Positions 9,790 to 45,438 of a stretch of 64,000 nucleotides of DNA are shown piece after piece. The notes under the pieces were generated by a model. That model worked only from the letters and a program-made list of their open reading frames with translations, was not told the origin of the DNA and ran no database searches. The stretch comes from an uncultured Nitrospirota bacterium (GTDB lineage: Bacteria > CG2-30-53-67). Position 1 is the first letter of the stretch. Each line of letters begins with the position of its first letter. The translations under genes were made by a program, and so were the position numbers. The DNA lies in the NCBI GenBank assembly GCA_947259355.1, contig CAMYMF010000002.1:1-64000 (forward strand). The letters are read 5' to 3'.

Positions 9790-10054
9790 AGTGCCTGTCT
9801 GTCCTCCCTCGGGCCGTTTCCATGTTCACCGTCATTCTGTTGATCGCGCCGGAGCCCGGATTCTCCAATGATGCACCCGGGAGCTCGCGGGGGAAGGCAG
9901 CGGTCTCCCTGTTGCCATGGCATGTCCCGTCTCTTCTTCTTTTCTCTGAATTGTGATATACAGGGTTGATGGGGATGATGGGGCTGTCGGTTTTCCCCCG
10001 GCGTCGGCCGACGTACCCGACGGCCGGGCAATCCGCTGCAGGGTGTGAGGCGTC

Positions 10055-11125
10055 ATGCTAGAAAAACTCAAAGAGATCGAAGAGAAGTTTGAAAAGATCA
10101 CCGTTGAGATGAGCGATCCCAAAGTGATCGCGGACCAGAAAGGCTTTCGACAACTCGCCCGGGAACACGCGCGGTTGTCTGAGATCATTGAGCCTTATCG
10201 GGAATATCAAAAATTGACAGAGAGCCTGACCTCGGCGGAGACGATCTATGACGAATCGGCGGACGACCCTGAGATGCGGCAAATGGCGGAGCTGGAGATG
10301 GATGAGCTCCGGGAAAAGCAGTCGGCACTGCAAGAGCGGTTAAAACTGCTGCTTGTCCCCCGAGACCCCAACGACGAGAAGAACATCCTGCTGGAGATCC
10401 GTGCGGGCACTGGCGGGGAGGAGGCGGCCCTCTTCGCCGCGGATCTCTTCCGCATGTACAGTCGCTACGCAGAGAACCGCAAATGGCGTGTGGAAGTGAT
10501 GAACAGCCATCCCACCGGGGTTGGGGGATTCAAGGAGATCGTTGCCCTCATCGAAGGAGACGGAGCTTACAGCCGGCTGAAATACGAAAGCGGTGTGCAC
10601 CGGGTGCAGCGGATTCCGGTGACCGAGTCCGGTGGGCGGATTCATACCTCGGCCGTTACCGTGGCCGTGCTTCCGGAAGCAGAAGACGTGGAGCTGGAAA
10701 TCAACCCGAACGATCTCAAAATCGATGTATTCCGCTCATCGGGACCCGGCGGGCAGAGTGTGAACACCACCGATTCCGCGGTGCGGATTACACACAACCC
10801 CACGGGGTTGGTCGTGATCTGTCAGGATGAGAAGTCTCAACTGAAGAACAAGACCAAGGCCATGAAGGTCCTCCGGGCCAGGCTTCTCGACCAAGCCCGT
10901 CGGGAGCAGGAGGAAGCCATCGCGAAGAATCGGAAGTCCCAGGTAGGTAGCGGGGACCGCAGTGAACGGATCCGCACCTACAACTTCCCTCAAAACCGGG
11001 TGACGGACCATCGCATCGGTCTCACGCTGCACCGCCTCGAGACTATCCTAGAGGGAGATCTGGACGAGACGGTGGACGCGCTGACCACTACCATGCAGGC
11101 GGAGGCGCTGCAGGATTATGAGTAA
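10055..11125 (+). CDS. prfA: Peptide chain release factor 1
   Basis: 356 residues, full family length. The stop-codon recognition loop reads PVT (in [13 protein letters not shown], about residue 187), the PxT form of RF1 that reads UAA/UAG, rather than the SPF of RF2. The catalytic GGQ is at about residue 231 ([17 protein letters not shown]). The N-terminal part is a long coiled coil. The 3' end overlaps the start of prmC, whose product methylates the GGQ glutamine, by 8 bases, so the two are translationally coupled. Confidence 0.97.
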
Positions 11126-27674: not shown

Positions 27675-27825
27675 TGAGGCGTCTCCTGAAAATAAATTTT
27701 AAGAAAGATAAGGATGAGATATGAGATTCTCGGGAGAGATCCCCGTCGACTAGTTCATTGTAACGTAAATGAGAGGCGGATGCAACAGATCTTTCCCAAT
27801 CTTCCACGGTGTTAGGTGATAATTA

Positions 27826-27854
27826 TTGTTCCGTCAGTCTGATTGGTTTATAAT
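27826..27854 (+). promoter_or_regulatory. Sigma-70 promoter for the receiver-GAF gene
   Basis: TTGTTC at 27826-27831, 17-base spacer, perfect TATAAT at 27849-27854. Transcription would start near 27861, leaving a leader of about 245-270 bases. The stretch 27675-28103 otherwise holds the upstream region of bactofilin and the structured element described next. Confidence 0.65.
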
Positions 27855-27856
27855 GA

Positions 27857-27941
27857 GATTAATTCAAGAAAGCCTACCCGATCCGAAAGGACTGGGCTGA
27901 AACGCCGGAGATGCCTCATCGGTCGACCGGCTGCCGAAATC
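27857..27941 (+). promoter_or_regulatory. Candidate structured leader RNA (weak resemblance to GEMM/c-di-GMP-I)
   Basis: Begins right at the predicted start point. A hairpin CCCGATCC/GGACTGGG (27877-27884 with 27889-27896, one mismatch and one wobble) is capped by a GAAA tetraloop. It is followed by an 11-base joint GCTGAAACGCC, a second stem GCCGG (27904-27908) with CCGGC (27927-27931) enclosing GATG-CCT-CATC, and the tail GGCTGCCGAAA. The order CC-stem-GAAA-stem-GG, a joint of the same length ending GCC, and a GCCGAAA-like 3' end parallels the c-di-GMP-I class, but several consensus bases (for example GCAAACC and ACGCAAAGCC) differ. A new or unrelated leader is equally possible. Confidence 0.3.
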
Positions 27942-28103
27942 AAACATGCTAAGAAAGCATTTCGCACATCTCCCGGAATGTTGGCTTTCTTGTTTGCGCC
28001 CCGGAGGCTTTTTCAGTTCTGAGGAGGCCATGCTTCACAGGGTGTTCCCTCTGGACCGCATAATGTTGTCACTCAAATCAGCGTTGATCCCCAAGGAATC
28101 GTC

Positions 28104-29201
28104 ATGACCGGCGGTGGGAGAAGATTTTCAATGGATCCGGCCCGCATCCTGATTGTTGATGATGATCCGAGCATCCGGAGAACGATCCGGGAGGCCCTGG
28201 GGCCACACCCATATCTTGTAGAGGAGGCGGGCGACGGCATCGAGGGGTTGATGAAGGTGATGGCTTTCCGGCCACATCTGGTGGTCCTGGACACGCTCAT
28301 GCCCAAGATGGATGGCATCAAGATGTGTGAGAACCTCCAGCGTGACCAGTCCACGGAGGACATTGCCATCATCATGCTGTCTTCTGAATCGGAGCAGGTC
28401 TGCAGCATGGAGTGTCTGCAGTCCGGTGCCAACGATTTCATTCTCAAACCCGTTGATCCGGGCGATCTGCTTGCCCGGATCGAGAGACAACTGGAGATGA
28501 AGGAGAAGCTCGACCGATTGGCATCGGAAAAGGAAGAGCTGACACTGATCCAGAGACTGGTCCGTGTTCTCTACGAAAAGAAGAGCATGCACGATCTGCT
28601 CTACACGCTGGTGATGCAGATCTCCGATGTGATCGACGTACAGCGTTGCTCTTTTGTGCGGGTGCGGGAAGACGGCAAAACCGGGGTGGTGGAGGCGTCC
28701 AGTGATGATGCAGCCATCCGCAACCTTGAAATCGACCTGGCCAAGTACCCTGAGATTGTCGAGATGCTCAAGACCAAGAAGATTCTCTTTCTCCAGGAGA
28801 TCGGCAAGTCCGACATCATGATCTCTGTGCAAGAGCACGTGGAAGAGATCAAATGTCAGTCCCTGGTTCTTATTCCTGTACTGGAGGAGAATCGCATTGC
28901 CGGCACGCTACTTCTTCGAACGGCGCGACGCAAGACGGCTTTTTCTGCCAAGGAAATCCGCTTTCTCGAGTCCATTACGGAGGCGGCGCGCTCGGCCATC
29001 CTCAACGTGCACGGTTGTGAAGGTCTGGAAGATCAGATCCTGGACGAGGCGTTAGACAATTCCGGTTTCTCAGAAAACTCCGCCTTCGATCATGCTCAGG
29101 TCATGGTGGATGAGTGCTTCCGATTGAAAGAGGAAATCTTGAGTCTCAAGGGTCTCCAGCAGGAGATGCGGGAGCGCCACCGTTCCACCTCCCTTCAGTA
29201 A
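28104..29201 (+). CDS. Response regulator with receiver and GAF domains
   Basis: 365 residues. The receiver spans about residues 12-130: acidic pair VDDDPS, phosphoacceptor Asp in VVLDTLMPKMDG, and Lys in FILKPVDPGDLLARI. A coiled segment (EMKEKLDRLASEKEELTLIQ) links to a GAF domain (about 150-310; DLLYTLVMQISDVIDVQRCS, CQSLVLIPVLEENRIAGTLL). The C-terminus is helical, with no DNA-binding or GGDEF motif. The ATG at 28104 has AAGGA upstream; a second ATG at 28131 just before the receiver also has a ribosome site. No kinase gene is adjacent, so the partner is unknown. It is expressed from a long structured leader. Confidence 0.87.
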   Translation: MTGGGRRFSMDPARILIVDDDPSIRRTIREALGPHPYLVEEAGDGIEGLMKVMAFRPHLVVLDTLMPKMDGIKMCENLQRDQSTEDIAIIMLSSESEQVCSMECLQSGANDFILKPVDPGDLLARIERQLEMKEKLDRLASEKEELTLIQRLVRVLYEKKSMHDLLYTLVMQISDVIDVQRCSFVRVREDGKTGVVEASSDDAAIRNLEIDLAKYPEIVEMLKTKKILFLQEIGKSDIMISVQEHVEEIKCQSLVLIPVLEENRIAGTLLLRTARRKTAFSAKEIRFLESITEAARSAILNVHGCEGLEDQILDEALDNSGFSENSAFDHAQVMVDECFRLKEEILSLKGLQQEMRERHRSTSLQ

Positions 29202-29258: not shown

Positions 29259-29287
29259 TTGACTCCTGGTGGCACGAATTATAATAT
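29259..29287 (+). promoter_or_regulatory. Sigma-70 promoter for nikR
   Basis: TTGACT at 29259-29264 with TAATAT at 29282-29287 (17-base spacer); an overlapping TATAAT at 29280-29285 would give a 15-base spacer. The -10 region lies inside the inverted repeat proposed as NikR operator. Confidence 0.6.
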
Positions 29288-29296
29288 CGTGGTACC
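29268..29296 (+). promoter_or_regulatory. Probable NikR operator over its own promoter
   Basis: Inverted repeat GGTGGCACGA (29268-29277), 9-base AT-rich spacer, TCGTGGTACC (29287-29296): 8 of 10 positions match across the arms. It covers the -10 box of the nikR promoter. NikR proteins bind long dyads of about 28 bases, as at E. coli nikABCDE. Binding here is inference. Confidence 0.55.
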
Positions 29297-29312
29297 AGTC
29301 AGGAGGTCTGAG

Positions 29313-29732
29313 ATGTCAACGTTGATCCGATTCGGCGTCTCCATGGAGGCCGAACTCCTCCAGCGCTTTGACGCGCTCATCGAAGGCAAGGGTTACGACA
29401 GCCGTTCGGAGGCGATACGCGATCTGATACGAGATCATCTCGTGCAGGAGGCGTGGCGGGTCGGTGTTGAGGAAACCGTGGGCACGATAACCTTGGTCTA
29501 CGACCACCACACGCGGGAACTGGCGGATACGCTTACACAGTTGCAGCACCACCATTTCCATTCAATTGTTTCGAGCCTCCATGTGCATATGGATGCGCAC
29601 CACTGCCTGGAGGTTCTCGTGGTCAAGGGCCAGGCGCTTCAGATCAAGCAGGTGGCAGACCGGCTCATAGGCACCCGGGGGGTGAAGCACGGGAAGCTGA
29701 CGTTGACGACCCGCGGCAGGGATCTGGCCTAA
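29313..29732 (+). CDS. nikR: Nickel-responsive ribbon-helix-helix regulator NikR
   Basis: 139 residues. The N-terminal RHH DNA-binding domain opens STLIRFGVSMEAELLQRFD and contains SRSEAIRDLIRDHL. The C-terminal ACT-like metal domain holds the complete nickel set, H79, H90, H92 and C98 (HSIVSSLHVHMDAHHCLEV), with the same spacing as E. coli H76/H87/H89/C95. ATG at 29313 follows AGGAGG; a longer TTG-initiated frame would run into the promoter. An inverted repeat on its own promoter suggests autoregulation. The genes downstream encode a CbiMQO-type metal importer, the expected target pathway. Confidence 0.94.
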   Translation: MSTLIRFGVSMEAELLQRFDALIEGKGYDSRSEAIRDLIRDHLVQEAWRVGVEETVGTITLVYDHHTRELADTLTQLQHHHFHSIVSSLHVHMDAHHCLEVLVVKGQALQIKQVADRLIGTRGVKHGKLTLTTRGRDLA

Positions 29733-30001
29733 ATGGGAGATGGTATGGCGCAAACTTTTGCGAGCGTGGAGAGTACGTCACAGGGGGCATGGACAACAAA
29801 TTGTTCGCTTCCCAATATGGGGATGGGTCTGTAACCATGAAAAACTTTACGCCTCGGCGGTAGCGCCTCCAGGCCCTTAGGCGGTACTCACGACGATGAA
29901 AGATGCACATCCGTGCTCGCCGAGAGGTGTTGAGGGGACGCGTCGCTGCTTTGAGCGCCGCCACGCTATGTGACGTCCAATCTGCACAGGGGGTTGAGTC
30001 C

Positions 30002-30595
30002 ATGCATATTTCGGAGGGAGTGCTCAGTCCTCCGGTGCTGATAGGCGGCTGGGCGGCCACGGGTCTTGTGGGCTGGGCCGCGCTGCGCACGATTGAAGGA
30101 GCGGACCTGCCGAAAATCGCCGTCATGACCTCCGCGTTCTTTGTGGCCTCGCTAATTCACATTCCGCTGGGGCCCGCCAGCGTCCACCTGGTGCTCAATG
30201 GACTGGTCGGGGTGCTTCTGGCTGCGGGTGCGTTTCCGGCAATCTTACTCGGTGTCACCCTCCAGGCCATTCTATTTCAGCACGGCGGGGTGACTGTCAT
30301 CGGAGTGAATGCCCTGCTGATGGGGTTGCCGGCTCTGGCTGCGTCGGCCATGTTCCGGTTGTACAAGCGGATGCCCGTCCGGGGGGGGACAACCCTCTTC
30401 GGTTTTCTCGCGGGCGCAGCTGCCACCCTCCTTTCGGGCCTCCTCCTCGCGATCCTCCTTGCCACTGCAGGGGAGGCTTTCTGGGTGGTGGCGAAGCTTG
30501 GGCTGGCAGCCCATTTGCCGGTCATGGTGATCGAAGGGGCTGTCACAGCGGCGGCCGTCTCTTTTCTGGGCCGGGTCAAGCCGGAGTTGCTCTGA
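30002..30595 (+). CDS. cbiM: Ni/Co ECF importer substrate-specific component (CbiM/NikM)
   Basis: 197 residues. The start MHISEGVLSPP is the conserved metal-binding N-terminus of CbiM/NikM, so the ATG at 30002 is right and the open frame further upstream is not used. About six spans follow (VHLVLNGLVGVLLAAGAFPA, GVNALLMGLPALAASAMF, LFGFLAGAAATLLSGLLLAI), with His in the VHL helix and QHGG contributing. It binds Ni2+ or Co2+ in the membrane; NikR next door favours nickel. 269 bases separate it from nikR. That gap holds a GC-rich inverted arrangement near 29850-29930 and no gene I can support. No cobalamin riboswitch was recognised. Confidence 0.9.
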   Translation: MHISEGVLSPPVLIGGWAATGLVGWAALRTIEGADLPKIAVMTSAFFVASLIHIPLGPASVHLVLNGLVGVLLAAGAFPAILLGVTLQAILFQHGGVTVIGVNALLMGLPALAASAMFRLYKRMPVRGGTTLFGFLAGAAATLLSGLLLAILLATAGEAFWVVAKLGLAAHLPVMVIEGAVTAAAVSFLGRVKPELL

Positions 30596-30619
30596 GGGCT
30601 CACCGGGGAGCGAGATGCC

Positions 30620-31366
30620 GTGCAGGTCTTGAAAGACAAGGTGGGTCCGTCGGATTCGATCTTTCACCGGATGGACCCGAGAGCGAAGCTGGTGGGATTC
30701 ACCCTAGTTCTTGCAGCCATGGCATCGGTCCGCACGCTGCCTGCGGCCATGGCAGCCTTCGGGCTGGCGGGGTGTACGCTTCTTGGTGCCCGGATCCCTC
30801 TCATCATACCGGCGCGGCGCGCGGTGATGGTGGTGCTCTTCCTGAGTCCATTTTTTCTGATTTTGCCATGGACGCATCCCGGCGGTCCATTCATGGGGGT
30901 GCATCAGGCGGCGGTCATTTGCCTGAAAGGGCTTGCCATGGTCCTGACCATCTTTCCCATGTTCGCTACGGCCCCCTTTCACGTTTCCATCAAAGCCCTG
31001 GAACGTCTCAAGCTCTCCCCCCGTTTCGTGACACTGACTCTGCTGACCTACCGGTATCTCGCCTTGTACGCGGCTGAGCTCGAGACGGTGCGGGTCGCCC
31101 TTCGCGCGCGCGGCTTCAGACCCCGGCGCGACCGGCGAACCCTGCGGACACTGGGGTATGTCATCGGCTCGCTTCTCGTCCGCTCCTTTGATCAGACCGA
31201 GCGTCTCTACCAGTCGATGCGAAATCGCGGCTACGCCGGGCATTTCGGAACGCTCTACATGTTCCGGCCTCTTTCCCGTCACGATTGGAGCAAAGCCTTC
31301 TTTCTGACTGTGGCGTCTCTGCTGCTTCTCGTTTTAGACCGATGGGTTGTTGGGAGGAGCGGATGA
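30620..31366 (+). CDS. cbiQ: ECF importer transmembrane coupling protein CbiQ
   Basis: 248 residues. The start is a GTG at 30620. Five or so spans (LVGFTLVLAAMASVRTLPAA, AVMVVLFLSPFFLILPW, AFFLTVASLLLLVLD) and two cytoplasmic coupling helices with the Ala/Asn-Arg-Gly signatures ALRARGF and MRNRGY, which dock the ATPase in EcfT proteins. It forms the importer with CbiM and CbiO. Its stop overlaps the cbiO start (ATGA). No cbiN or nikN gene is present between cbiM and cbiQ. Confidence 0.92.
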   Translation: MQVLKDKVGPSDSIFHRMDPRAKLVGFTLVLAAMASVRTLPAAMAAFGLAGCTLLGARIPLIIPARRAVMVVLFLSPFFLILPWTHPGGPFMGVHQAAVICLKGLAMVLTIFPMFATAPFHVSIKALERLKLSPRFVTLTLLTYRYLALYAAELETVRVALRARGFRPRRDRRTLRTLGYVIGSLLVRSFDQTERLYQSMRNRGYAGHFGTLYMFRPLSRHDWSKAFFLTVASLLLLVLDRWVVGRSG

Positions 31367-32265
31367 CGCCGATCATCGAGATCCGGGATCTTTCCTTCAC
31401 CTATGAAAGCGGTGTGAAGGCGCTTCGCAGAGTGAATCTGACCATTGACAAGGGGGAGACGGTTATCTTCATTGGGCCCAACGGCGCAGGCAAGAGCACC
31501 CTTCTTCTGATGATGCGCGGACTCTTGGGGAAGCTCGACGGACGCATCCGCATTTCAGGGCGGCCCCTGGACCACCCCGAACAGGTGGAAGCTCTGGCCG
31601 GCCGGATCGGTCTGGTGTTCCAGAATCCAGAGGACCAGCTCTTCTGTCCCACGGTTTTTGACGATGTGGCCTTCGGGCCGCTGAACATGGGGGTGGCGCC
31701 GGAGCGGGTCCGCGAGCGGGTTGCTGCGGCGCTCCGGGCCGTCGGTCTGGTCGGCTATGAGGATCGGGTTCCCCATCAGCTGAGCGGTGGTGAGAAGCGG
31801 CGCGTCAGCCTGGCCACCGTCTACGCCATGGAGCCCGACATCTTGCTGCTCGATGAGCCCACGAGCCATCTCGATCCTCATGCCCGACAGGAAGTCATCG
31901 CGCTGATCCAGCAGTTTCCCGGCACCCGGGTGATTGCCACCCACGATTTCGAGCTAATCCTCAAAGTTGCAGAGCGGGTCGTCCTGTTTCACAAAGGTCA
32001 GATTGAGGCCGACGGGTGCCCCATCGAAGTGCTGACCGATGAACCCTTGCTCAAAGCGAATGGTCTGGAGATGCCGCTGGTTGTCCGCTACCTCATGGCC
32101 CTACATTCCGGAGAGGAGGCGTCTCTTCACGAGCACGAGCACGAGCATATATACCATTACCACACGCACGAAGGCAAGAAGGCCCAGCGATCTCTCCGTC
32201 ACTCCCATATTCACAGTCACGACCACGATGTTGACCATACCCATGGCCATGGGAGGCAATCCTGA
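31363..32265 (+). CDS. cbiO: ECF importer ATPase CbiO with histidine-rich tail
   Basis: 300 residues. Cytoplasmic ATPase: Walker A GPNGAGKST, Q-loop VFQNPEDQLF, signature LSGGEKRRVSLA, Walker B DILLLDEPTSHLD, switch His in ATHDFEL. The domain is complete by about residue 250. The last 50 residues are an unusual metal-binding-type tail with about 15 histidines (HEHEHEHIYHYHTH and SHIHSHDHDVDHTHGHG). Such a tail could buffer or hand off Ni2+, or sense cytoplasmic nickel; this is inference. ATG at 31363 follows GGGAGGAG and overlaps the cbiQ stop by 4 bases. Confidence 0.93.
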   Translation: MTPIIEIRDLSFTYESGVKALRRVNLTIDKGETVIFIGPNGAGKSTLLLMMRGLLGKLDGRIRISGRPLDHPEQVEALAGRIGLVFQNPEDQLFCPTVFDDVAFGPLNMGVAPERVRERVAAALRAVGLVGYEDRVPHQLSGGEKRRVSLATVYAMEPDILLLDEPTSHLDPHARQEVIALIQQFPGTRVIATHDFELILKVAERVVLFHKGQIEADGCPIEVLTDEPLLKANGLEMPLVVRYLMALHSGEEASLHEHEHEHIYHYHTHEGKKAQRSLRHSHIHSHDHDVDHTHGHGRQS

Positions 32266-44508: not shown

Positions 44509-45438
44509 ATGTACGAGAAATACTTCGGATTCAACGAAAAACCGTTTCGGCTGGTTCCGGAGCCCCGTTTTTTCTACATGAGCCGTCCGCACCGTGCTGC
44601 CCTCTGTCATTTGCAGTACGGACTGGAAGATCGAAACGGTATTGTGGCCATCACCGGCGAGGTCGGTTCGGGCAAGACATTGCTGCTTCGTATTCTCATG
44701 GATTCCGTGCCGCGGACCTTCGTGGTGGCCCGTGTATTCAACACCAACCTCGACCCCAAGGAATTGCTCCAGCAGATCCTCCATGAATTCGGCATCGAGG
44801 CGGAAGGGGCGTCCAAGCCGAAGATGCTGGCCCTGCTGAACGACTTTCTCATCCGCTGCTACGGCCGGCGGCAGGAGGTCGTCCTGATTATCGACGAAGC
44901 TCAGAATCTGGGCATCGAGACCCTGGAAGAGGTTCGGATGCTCTCCAACCTGGAGACCAAGACGGACAAATTGATCCAGATCTTTCTCGTGGGCCAGCCC
45001 CAGCTTCGGGATAAACTGCGCCGGCCCGAACTGGAGCAGCTGCGCCAGCGAATTACCGTTCACTACCATCTCCCTGCCATGAACGAGGAAGACACCTTCA
45101 GCTATGTCCACCACCGTCTTGCCGTCGGAACTGGCGATTCCGTGAAGATTTTCACCGAGGAGGGCCTGAGGAGAATTCACGCGTACTCCGGCGGCATCCC
45201 CCGGCTGATCAATCTAGCCGCCGATGGCGCCCTGCGTTTTGCCTTTGCCGAGGACAAGAAGATTATCGACAGCAGAATCGTTGATGAAGTGATCCGGGAA
45301 CTGGGGGACGTCGGCACGCTTGCGGAGGCTCCGCCACCCCGGCGCGATCCGGCATCGGCGCCGCCCAAGGGCCAAGTCGCCGAAGCCGGTGGTGAATGCC
45401 GGATCCTCGAGCTCAAACCTCGGAAGCCGGGCCAGTGA
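44509..45438 (+). CDS. AAA ATPase of the ExeA/GspA (XrtA-associated) type
   Basis: 309 residues. Opens MYEKYFGFNEKPFRLVPEPR FFYMS, the signature start of ExeA-like ATPases. Walker A is GEVGSGKTLLLR (residue about 51), Walker B VVLIIDEAQNLG, sensor 1 IFLVGQPQLRDKL, and RQRITVHYHLPAM follows. C-terminal YSGGIPRLINLAADGALRFA completes the AAA module; the last 50 residues are Pro/Ala-rich. Relatives help place secretins through peptidoglycan or act in exopolysaccharide systems with XrtA exosortase. No ExeB, secretin or exosortase gene is nearby, so the role here is open. Confidence 0.88.
   Translation: MYEKYFGFNEKPFRLVPEPRFFYMSRPHRAALCHLQYGLEDRNGIVAITGEVGSGKTLLLRILMDSVPRTFVVARVFNTNLDPKELLQQILHEFGIEAEGASKPKMLALLNDFLIRCYGRRQEVVLIIDEAQNLGIETLEEVRMLSNLETKTDKLIQIFLVGQPQLRDKLRRPELEQLRQRITVHYHLPAMNEEDTFSYVHHRLAVGTGDSVKIFTEEGLRRIHAYSGGIPRLINLAADGALRFAFAEDKKIIDSRIVDEVIRELGDVGTLAEAPPPRRDPASAPPKGQVAEAGGECRILELKPRKPGQ

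Follow-up and report, generated by a model that had tools for sequence, protein, structure and literature searches.

Riboswitches of the c-di-GMP-I (GEMM) class, Rfam family RF01051, are the closest described relatives of the element analysed here, together with the c-di-GMP-I-GGC family (RF03167), which belongs to the same Rfam clan, and the 3′,3′-cGAMP riboswitch (GEMM-Ib). In the numbering that we assume, positions 20, 47 and 92 of the aptamer are presumably its c-di-GMP contacts. Hypr enzymes carry a serine at the GGDEF position that we read below. According to one report (PMC6456294), the base at position 20 of a Geobacter aptamer determines the ligand, cGAMP for A and c-di-GMP for G, and the solved aptamer of the cGAMP riboswitch has a C15–G40 closing pair, according to another (PMC6274999), from which our position numbering is also partly taken.

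We compared these systems with a locus in a 64,000-nucleotide stretch of contig CAMYMF010000002.1 (hereafter the window), which comes from an uncultured Nitrospirota bacterium with a MAG of 3.1 Mb and 89.7% completeness. The original prediction described a tetraloop-capped fold between a sigma-70 promoter and the gene of a receiver–GAF regulator, and suggested that it may be a divergent riboswitch or an undescribed leader. From sequence comparison, the best explanation on balance is that the element at 27862–27938 (77 nt, + strand) is an orthologous, highly diverged c-di-GMP-I-type aptamer that would switch the expression of the receiver–GAF protein. Taken part by part, homology to GEMM-I is very probable, continued function of the window aptamer is slightly favoured, and the ligand, if the aptamer functions, is probably c-di-GMP. 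The novelty would lie in the diverged variant; the c-di-GMP-I class itself is known.

The sigma-70 promoter that was proposed directly before the fold can be read in the sequence. A perfect −10 hexamer (TATAAT, 27849–27854, +) follows the −35 hexamer TTGTTC (27826–27831, +) with a spacer of 17 bp. The pattern TTGTYM-17-TATAMT, which was drawn up after inspection of the ortholog sequences, occurs once upstream of each of the six orthologs, with TATAAT or TATACT as the −10 in all six. A promoter scan of the leader returned no sites under a rule of at least 4/6 per hexamer; the window −35 has 3/6.

Taken alone, the element is invisible to Rfam. Searched up to E = 10, the leader (27780–28130) gave no GEMM match and only a 17-nt chance miRNA match, and the element fell short both of the 35 bits of RF01051 and of the 59 bits of RF03167. 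The whole window had no match to any family at the gathering score, and the element is not among the ten RF03167 matches at E ≤ 1 from its own genome (150 of 498 candidates scored). Its fold is about as stable as those of shuffled sequences (z −0.75; 43 of 200 shuffles equally stable), as is that of the whole leader (z −1.08). The support for the element, which would be discarded if judged singly, is therefore comparative rather than thermodynamic.

This comparative support begins with orthologous leaders. Within a phylum sample of eight genomes including the source, each of the family's five other genomes contributed its best regulator match as the ortholog; the match in genome G005 contains one in-frame stop, and at E ≤ 1e-10 nothing in the two genomes of the other family matched the C-terminal part of the regulator. 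The orthologs belong to three genera: g1, with the window copy (leader locus L009) and G001 (L010); g2, with G004 and G002 (L011 and L012); and g3, with G005 (L013) and G003 (L014). In a cmscan of the six loci, both g3 leaders, that is, two of the five other orthologs, had accepted RF01051 aptamers directly behind the promoter (L013, 2764–2688, 38.4 bits; L014, 2766–2690, 36.0 bits; cut-off, 35). No RF01051 match at E ≤ 1 was found at the leader site in L009 or L010, and in the g2 leaders the −10 is followed after 27 and 26 nt by an ATG, which leaves no room for an aptamer. The leader is thus over the cut-off in g3 (2/2), diverged in g1 (2/2) and without an aptamer in g2 (2/2). In a gene tree of the GAF region, which carries a long-branch warning, g1 and g3 group together with support of 90/90; gain in g1 plus g3 and loss in g2 are both compatible with this tree. 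A search for more g1 sequences returned three loci among 50 matched stretches, those of G001, G002 and G005, and no independent one. As a separate observation, the g2 promoters, which have no aptamer, carry palindromes across the −35 and spacer (L011, 1431–1450, TTTGTTTGTCCACAAACAAA; L012, 526–539, TTGTCAGCTGACAA), and a repressor site there may substitute for the riboswitch.

Covariance models specific to the phylum recover the element itself. The source genome has at least eight RF01051 matches at E ≤ 0.001, seven of them over the cut-off (150 of 224 candidates scored), and the seven further phylum genomes have 34 at E ≤ 1, of which 25, in six of the seven, are over the cut-off. Model R1 was built from 25 of these 42 GEMM aptamers, and R2 from 22 of the 42 with the two orthologous g3 leaders left out; both were searched against positions 10000–50000 of the window (40 kb). 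R1 gave the element 23.6 bits and the next match 17.9. With R2 it ranked first at 24.1 bits (E 2e-5, R2 E-values being rough), ahead of matches at 19.0 and 17.4 bits; the same-genus copy (L069) scored 22.2 bits, L061 39.8 and L062 40.5, and 23 loci from genomes of other phyla (76,502 bases in all) gave a background of at most 9.8 bits. We took these further R1/R2 matches in the window, at 45187–45253 (−) and 10146–10203 (−), as chance: they lie antisense in genes, for an AAA ATPase and a peptide chain release factor with PCRF and RF-1 domains, respectively, and align without the first hairpin. For a single match the R2 margin is modest, as apparent chance reaches 19 bits, but it becomes strong with two orthologous matches at the same place. 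The proposal of a divergent c-di-GMP-I (GEMM)-like riboswitch thus gains support both from the two orthologous leaders over the cut-off and from a model that excludes them. A further model from the four leaders of g1 and g3 (R3), searched in the eight genomes, returned the same four at 79.2–88.6 bits, followed by ordinary GEMMs (L001, 39.8; L056, 39.0); because R3 contains the g3 leaders, this link to ordinary GEMMs is not independent.

In the R1 and R2 alignments, the parts of the element (all on the + strand) fall into place with the hairpins in GEMM order. The J1/2 strand AGAAAG (27867–27872) ends in G27872, the G20 equivalent in the register of both models. The closing pair C27873–G27899 (27873–27899) is equivalent to 21–46 but flipped, the pair after it, C27874·U27898, is mismatched, and A27900 is the A47 equivalent. 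Between these strands lies the first hairpin, CCCGAUCC-GAAA-GGACUGGG (27877–27896), which is present in the fold; its GNRA loop (27885–27888) reads GAAA in the window, L013 and L014 and GAGA in L010, and CC-GNRA-GGAC.GGGC is common to the four leaders. The second hairpin, P3 (27902–27932), includes the pair A27902–U27932, an outer stem of GCCGG (27904–27908) with CCGGC (27927–27931) that is also found in the fold, and an inner GAU/GUC pairing (27910–27912 with 27922–27924); pair counts over the four leaders support both stems, and the hairpin 27904–27931 ends in GGCUGCCGAA. The 3′ tail GCCGAA (27933–27938) contains C27934, the C92 equivalent, and TGCCGAA is identical in all four leaders and common among GEMMs of the phylum. 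The equivalents of G20, A47 and C92 are thus all present in this register. If 8 nt are counted from the AAA equivalent to the GNRA loop, as in L013, an alternative register results, in which position 20 is A27871.

The window element resembles c-di-GMP-I (RF01051) in the order of its elements, the GNRA-capped first hairpin, the A-rich J1/2, an AAA junction and the TGCCGAA tail, as well as in its site at the 5′ end of a signalling gene and its two orthologs over the cut-off. It differs in a score below the reporting level, a GC/GC closing step that has become CC/UG, an AAA that has become UAC, an extra C before P3 and, by eye, a P3 without a tetraloop-receptor-like motif. Of the two pairs in the closing step, GC/GC in the RF01051 consensus, one is possible in the window and both are mismatched in L010. 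We do not file the element as a member of RF01051 because its score and closing step fail. These alignments show remodelling of both the closing step and P3 in the window element.

Conservation is concentrated in the first half of the aptamer. Identity between the window and L010 is 30/33 over 27870–27902, 61/76 over the whole aptamer and 19/26 over 27903–27929; the rates for comparison are 101/156 (later leader) and 95/138 (fourfold sites). Fisher tests against the later leader gave 0.003 for the first half, 0.022 for the whole aptamer and 0.51 for 27903–27929. These rates indicate that the first half is constrained and that the second half, in its sequence, is not. Over the four leaders, 91.1% of cells were paired in the tested structure (three first-hairpin and 11 P3 pairs) versus 3.6–46.4% in slid versions, the structure having been drawn from the same four sequences, which favours it. 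Three pairs changed on both sides, a number that 119 of 500 shuffles reach, and the covariation score, from four sequences only, was equalled by 30 of 500. Folded alone, the L010 aptamer did not produce the P3 of the model. Among the outcomes that would speak against it, the original prediction had named a score at background level combined with a lack of conservation: the score is indeed at background in Rfam up to E = 10, whereas the element is conserved relative to its orthologs, with limited covariation support.

Such a mixed pattern might also be left by a riboswitch in decay, the most serious of the alternatives, although an unlikely one. The g1 aptamer would have lost ligand binding, its conservation would be residual or due to constraints on the promoter and early transcript, and the promoter alone would set expression, as in g2. 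Decay would account for the many core changes, for the mismatched closing pairs (both in L010, one in the window), for a second half that evolves at the background rate and for g2 orthologs that have no aptamer, but it sits poorly with a first half conserved at 30/33 against 101/156 in the later leader, with the G20, A47 and C92 equivalents (in the favoured register) and the GNRA loop retained in both g1 copies, and with some compensating P3 changes relative to g3.

If the aptamer is functional, c-di-GMP is probably its ligand. RF03167 has matches over its cut-off in the phylum (for example, L002 at 60.1 bits), whereas the window element has none and its 47 equivalent is A instead of G. The 20 GGDEF matches of the source genome represent 19 domains, one domain having been matched in two pieces; where Hypr enzymes have serine, 15 show the canonical GD, one GN and one GQ, and two cannot be read because they are too degenerate. 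The readable domains of this MAG (89.7% complete) include none with serine. Position 20 is G in the favoured register, another difference from the 3′,3′-cGAMP riboswitch, which the element resembles in its closing pair, C–G in the window as in C15–G40 (PMC6274999). That the element is a GEMM variant with a switched ligand, such as 3′,3′-cGAMP, read through the register A27871-G27872-C27873 (A20), seems to us improbable: the alignment leaves the register unfixed and the 8-nt count as in L013 gives A20, but both phylum models chose G20. The deciding role of position 20 in the Geobacter aptamer (PMC6456294) and the GEMMs of the same genome in which A20 can be read by eye (L005 and L006, for example) would fit a switch; the lack of a Hypr-position serine among readable GGDEF domains counts against it, although absence from an 89.7% complete MAG is no proof. 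With one leader in three states on the same promoter (accepted in g3, with a remodelled core in g1, absent in g2), g1 could have rebuilt the closing step and changed its ligand, a scenario that we consider doubtful.

Chance resemblance or an unrelated leader structure is very improbable, because, for all that the Rfam score and fold energy are at background and R2 finds chance matches of up to 19.0 bits in the same window, the element has the place and promoter of accepted riboswitches in its orthologs and R2 matches the two g1 copies with scores that no background match in 76.5 kb attains.

Returning to the reading as a diverged c-di-GMP-I-type aptamer, we examined the leader between it and the regulator, a receiver–GAF protein of 356 aa from its probable start (28131–29201, +; Pfam PF00072 and PF01590). 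The start had been placed at the ATG at 28104. In L010, the equivalent ATG is followed by an in-frame TAG, and ATGGATCCGGCC (window 28131) is kept behind a conserved Shine–Dalgarno, GGTGGGAG; the Shine–Dalgarno of the window is GGGAGA (28116–28121, +). The start codon is therefore probably 28131 rather than 28104, and the leader behind the fold, put at more than 160 nt, would lengthen to about 190 nt.

This leader contains a candidate anti-aptamer strand, GGCTTTCTTG (27983–27992, +), a perfect 10-bp complement of CAAGAAAGCC at 27865–27874 (J1/2 and closing strand). A stem of 10 bp between aptamer and remaining leader is reached by 4 of 300 shuffles; the longest perfect stems elsewhere are 7 bp in L010 (197/300 shuffles as long), where the 10-bp stem is not kept, 8 bp in L013 (39/300) and 6 bp in L014 (279/300). 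In the minimum-energy fold of the full leader, 27865–27874 pairs with 27983–27992 and the P3 5′ strand with 27967–27976, and the aptamer is broken. No intrinsic terminator was found in the window leader, and forcing the aptamer in folding caused no clear change in Shine–Dalgarno pairing. Duplex energies, a poor test that permits long bulged duplexes, were matched for aptamer and remaining leader by fractions of 0.684 (window), 0.08 (L010), 0.266 (L013) and 0.378 (L014) of 500 shuffles, and for the Shine–Dalgarno region and leader by 0.322 (window), 0.456 (L013) and 0.386 (L014); the corresponding L010 value of 0.082 is void, as that stretch entered the coding part.

The switch could work as follows. 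At the 5′ end of the regulator transcript, the element would fold into an aptamer of three helices, with a cyclic dinucleotide, most likely c-di-GMP, bound at their junction. This binding would lock J1/2 into the aptamer and free 27983–27992 (and 27967–27976); without ligand, these two stretches would pair with J1/2 and the P3 5′ strand. The change may alter elongation or translation of the receiver–GAF protein and so couple the level of the regulator to the c-di-GMP pool made by the GGDEF proteins of the genome.

The context of the regulator is cyclic-dinucleotide signalling. Next to the aligned part, each of its two nearest paralogs in the genome, on C41 (37% over residues 11–309) and on C25 (33%), shows a GGDEF match in a frame of equal length; the C41 frame, read through, contains both parts. 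A cyclic-dinucleotide sensor before a receiver–GAF protein with such paralogs would, if functional, form a feedback link. Riboswitch catalogues judge sites singly, and this site came to light only by way of orthologous leaders and a model specific to the lineage. The natural series of accepted, remodelled and absent aptamers on one promoter offers a test of how an aptamer changes its ligand or dies. Behind the regulator, the window (29259–32265) encodes a repressor of the NikR type and a cobalt/nickel transporter of the CbiM type; in the translations, a transporter membrane protein can also be recognized by eye, as can an ATPase whose tail is rich in histidine.

Several other GEMMs of the phylum are unusual in their own right. 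One subgroup has a very short first hairpin, such as CCC-UUCG-GGGG in L068 (L008, 1501–1576; L049, 1501–1572; L066, 1501–1569; L068, 1501–1569), which is an unlikely candidate for docking in the manner of the usual GNRA arm; the best Rfam match of these aptamers is c-di-GMP-I-GGC at 27.4–38.9 bits, below the cut-off of 59. Tandem aptamers about 200 nt apart occur in L006 (1296–1379 and 1501–1579) and similarly in L007, L050, L055, L058 and L065. At most tandem loci one copy begins CTTTGCTCAGAGCAAACC, with A at position 20 by eye, and the 5′ flank TTTGCTC complements its own GAGCAAA. The closing pair is C–G, not G–C, in L002, L003, L060 and L064 (GCT...CGGAAAG; GCC...CAGAAAG in L003), and L002 scores 60.1 bits with RF03167, over the cut-off, although its 47 equivalent is A and not G. 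The L005 GEMM (1501–1581), with A20 by eye and 51.1 bits to c-di-GMP-I-UAU, below the cut-off of that family, precedes a gene (L110, 217–1881) for a protein with receiver, GAF-like and HD-GYP-like domains, the last two assigned by eye.
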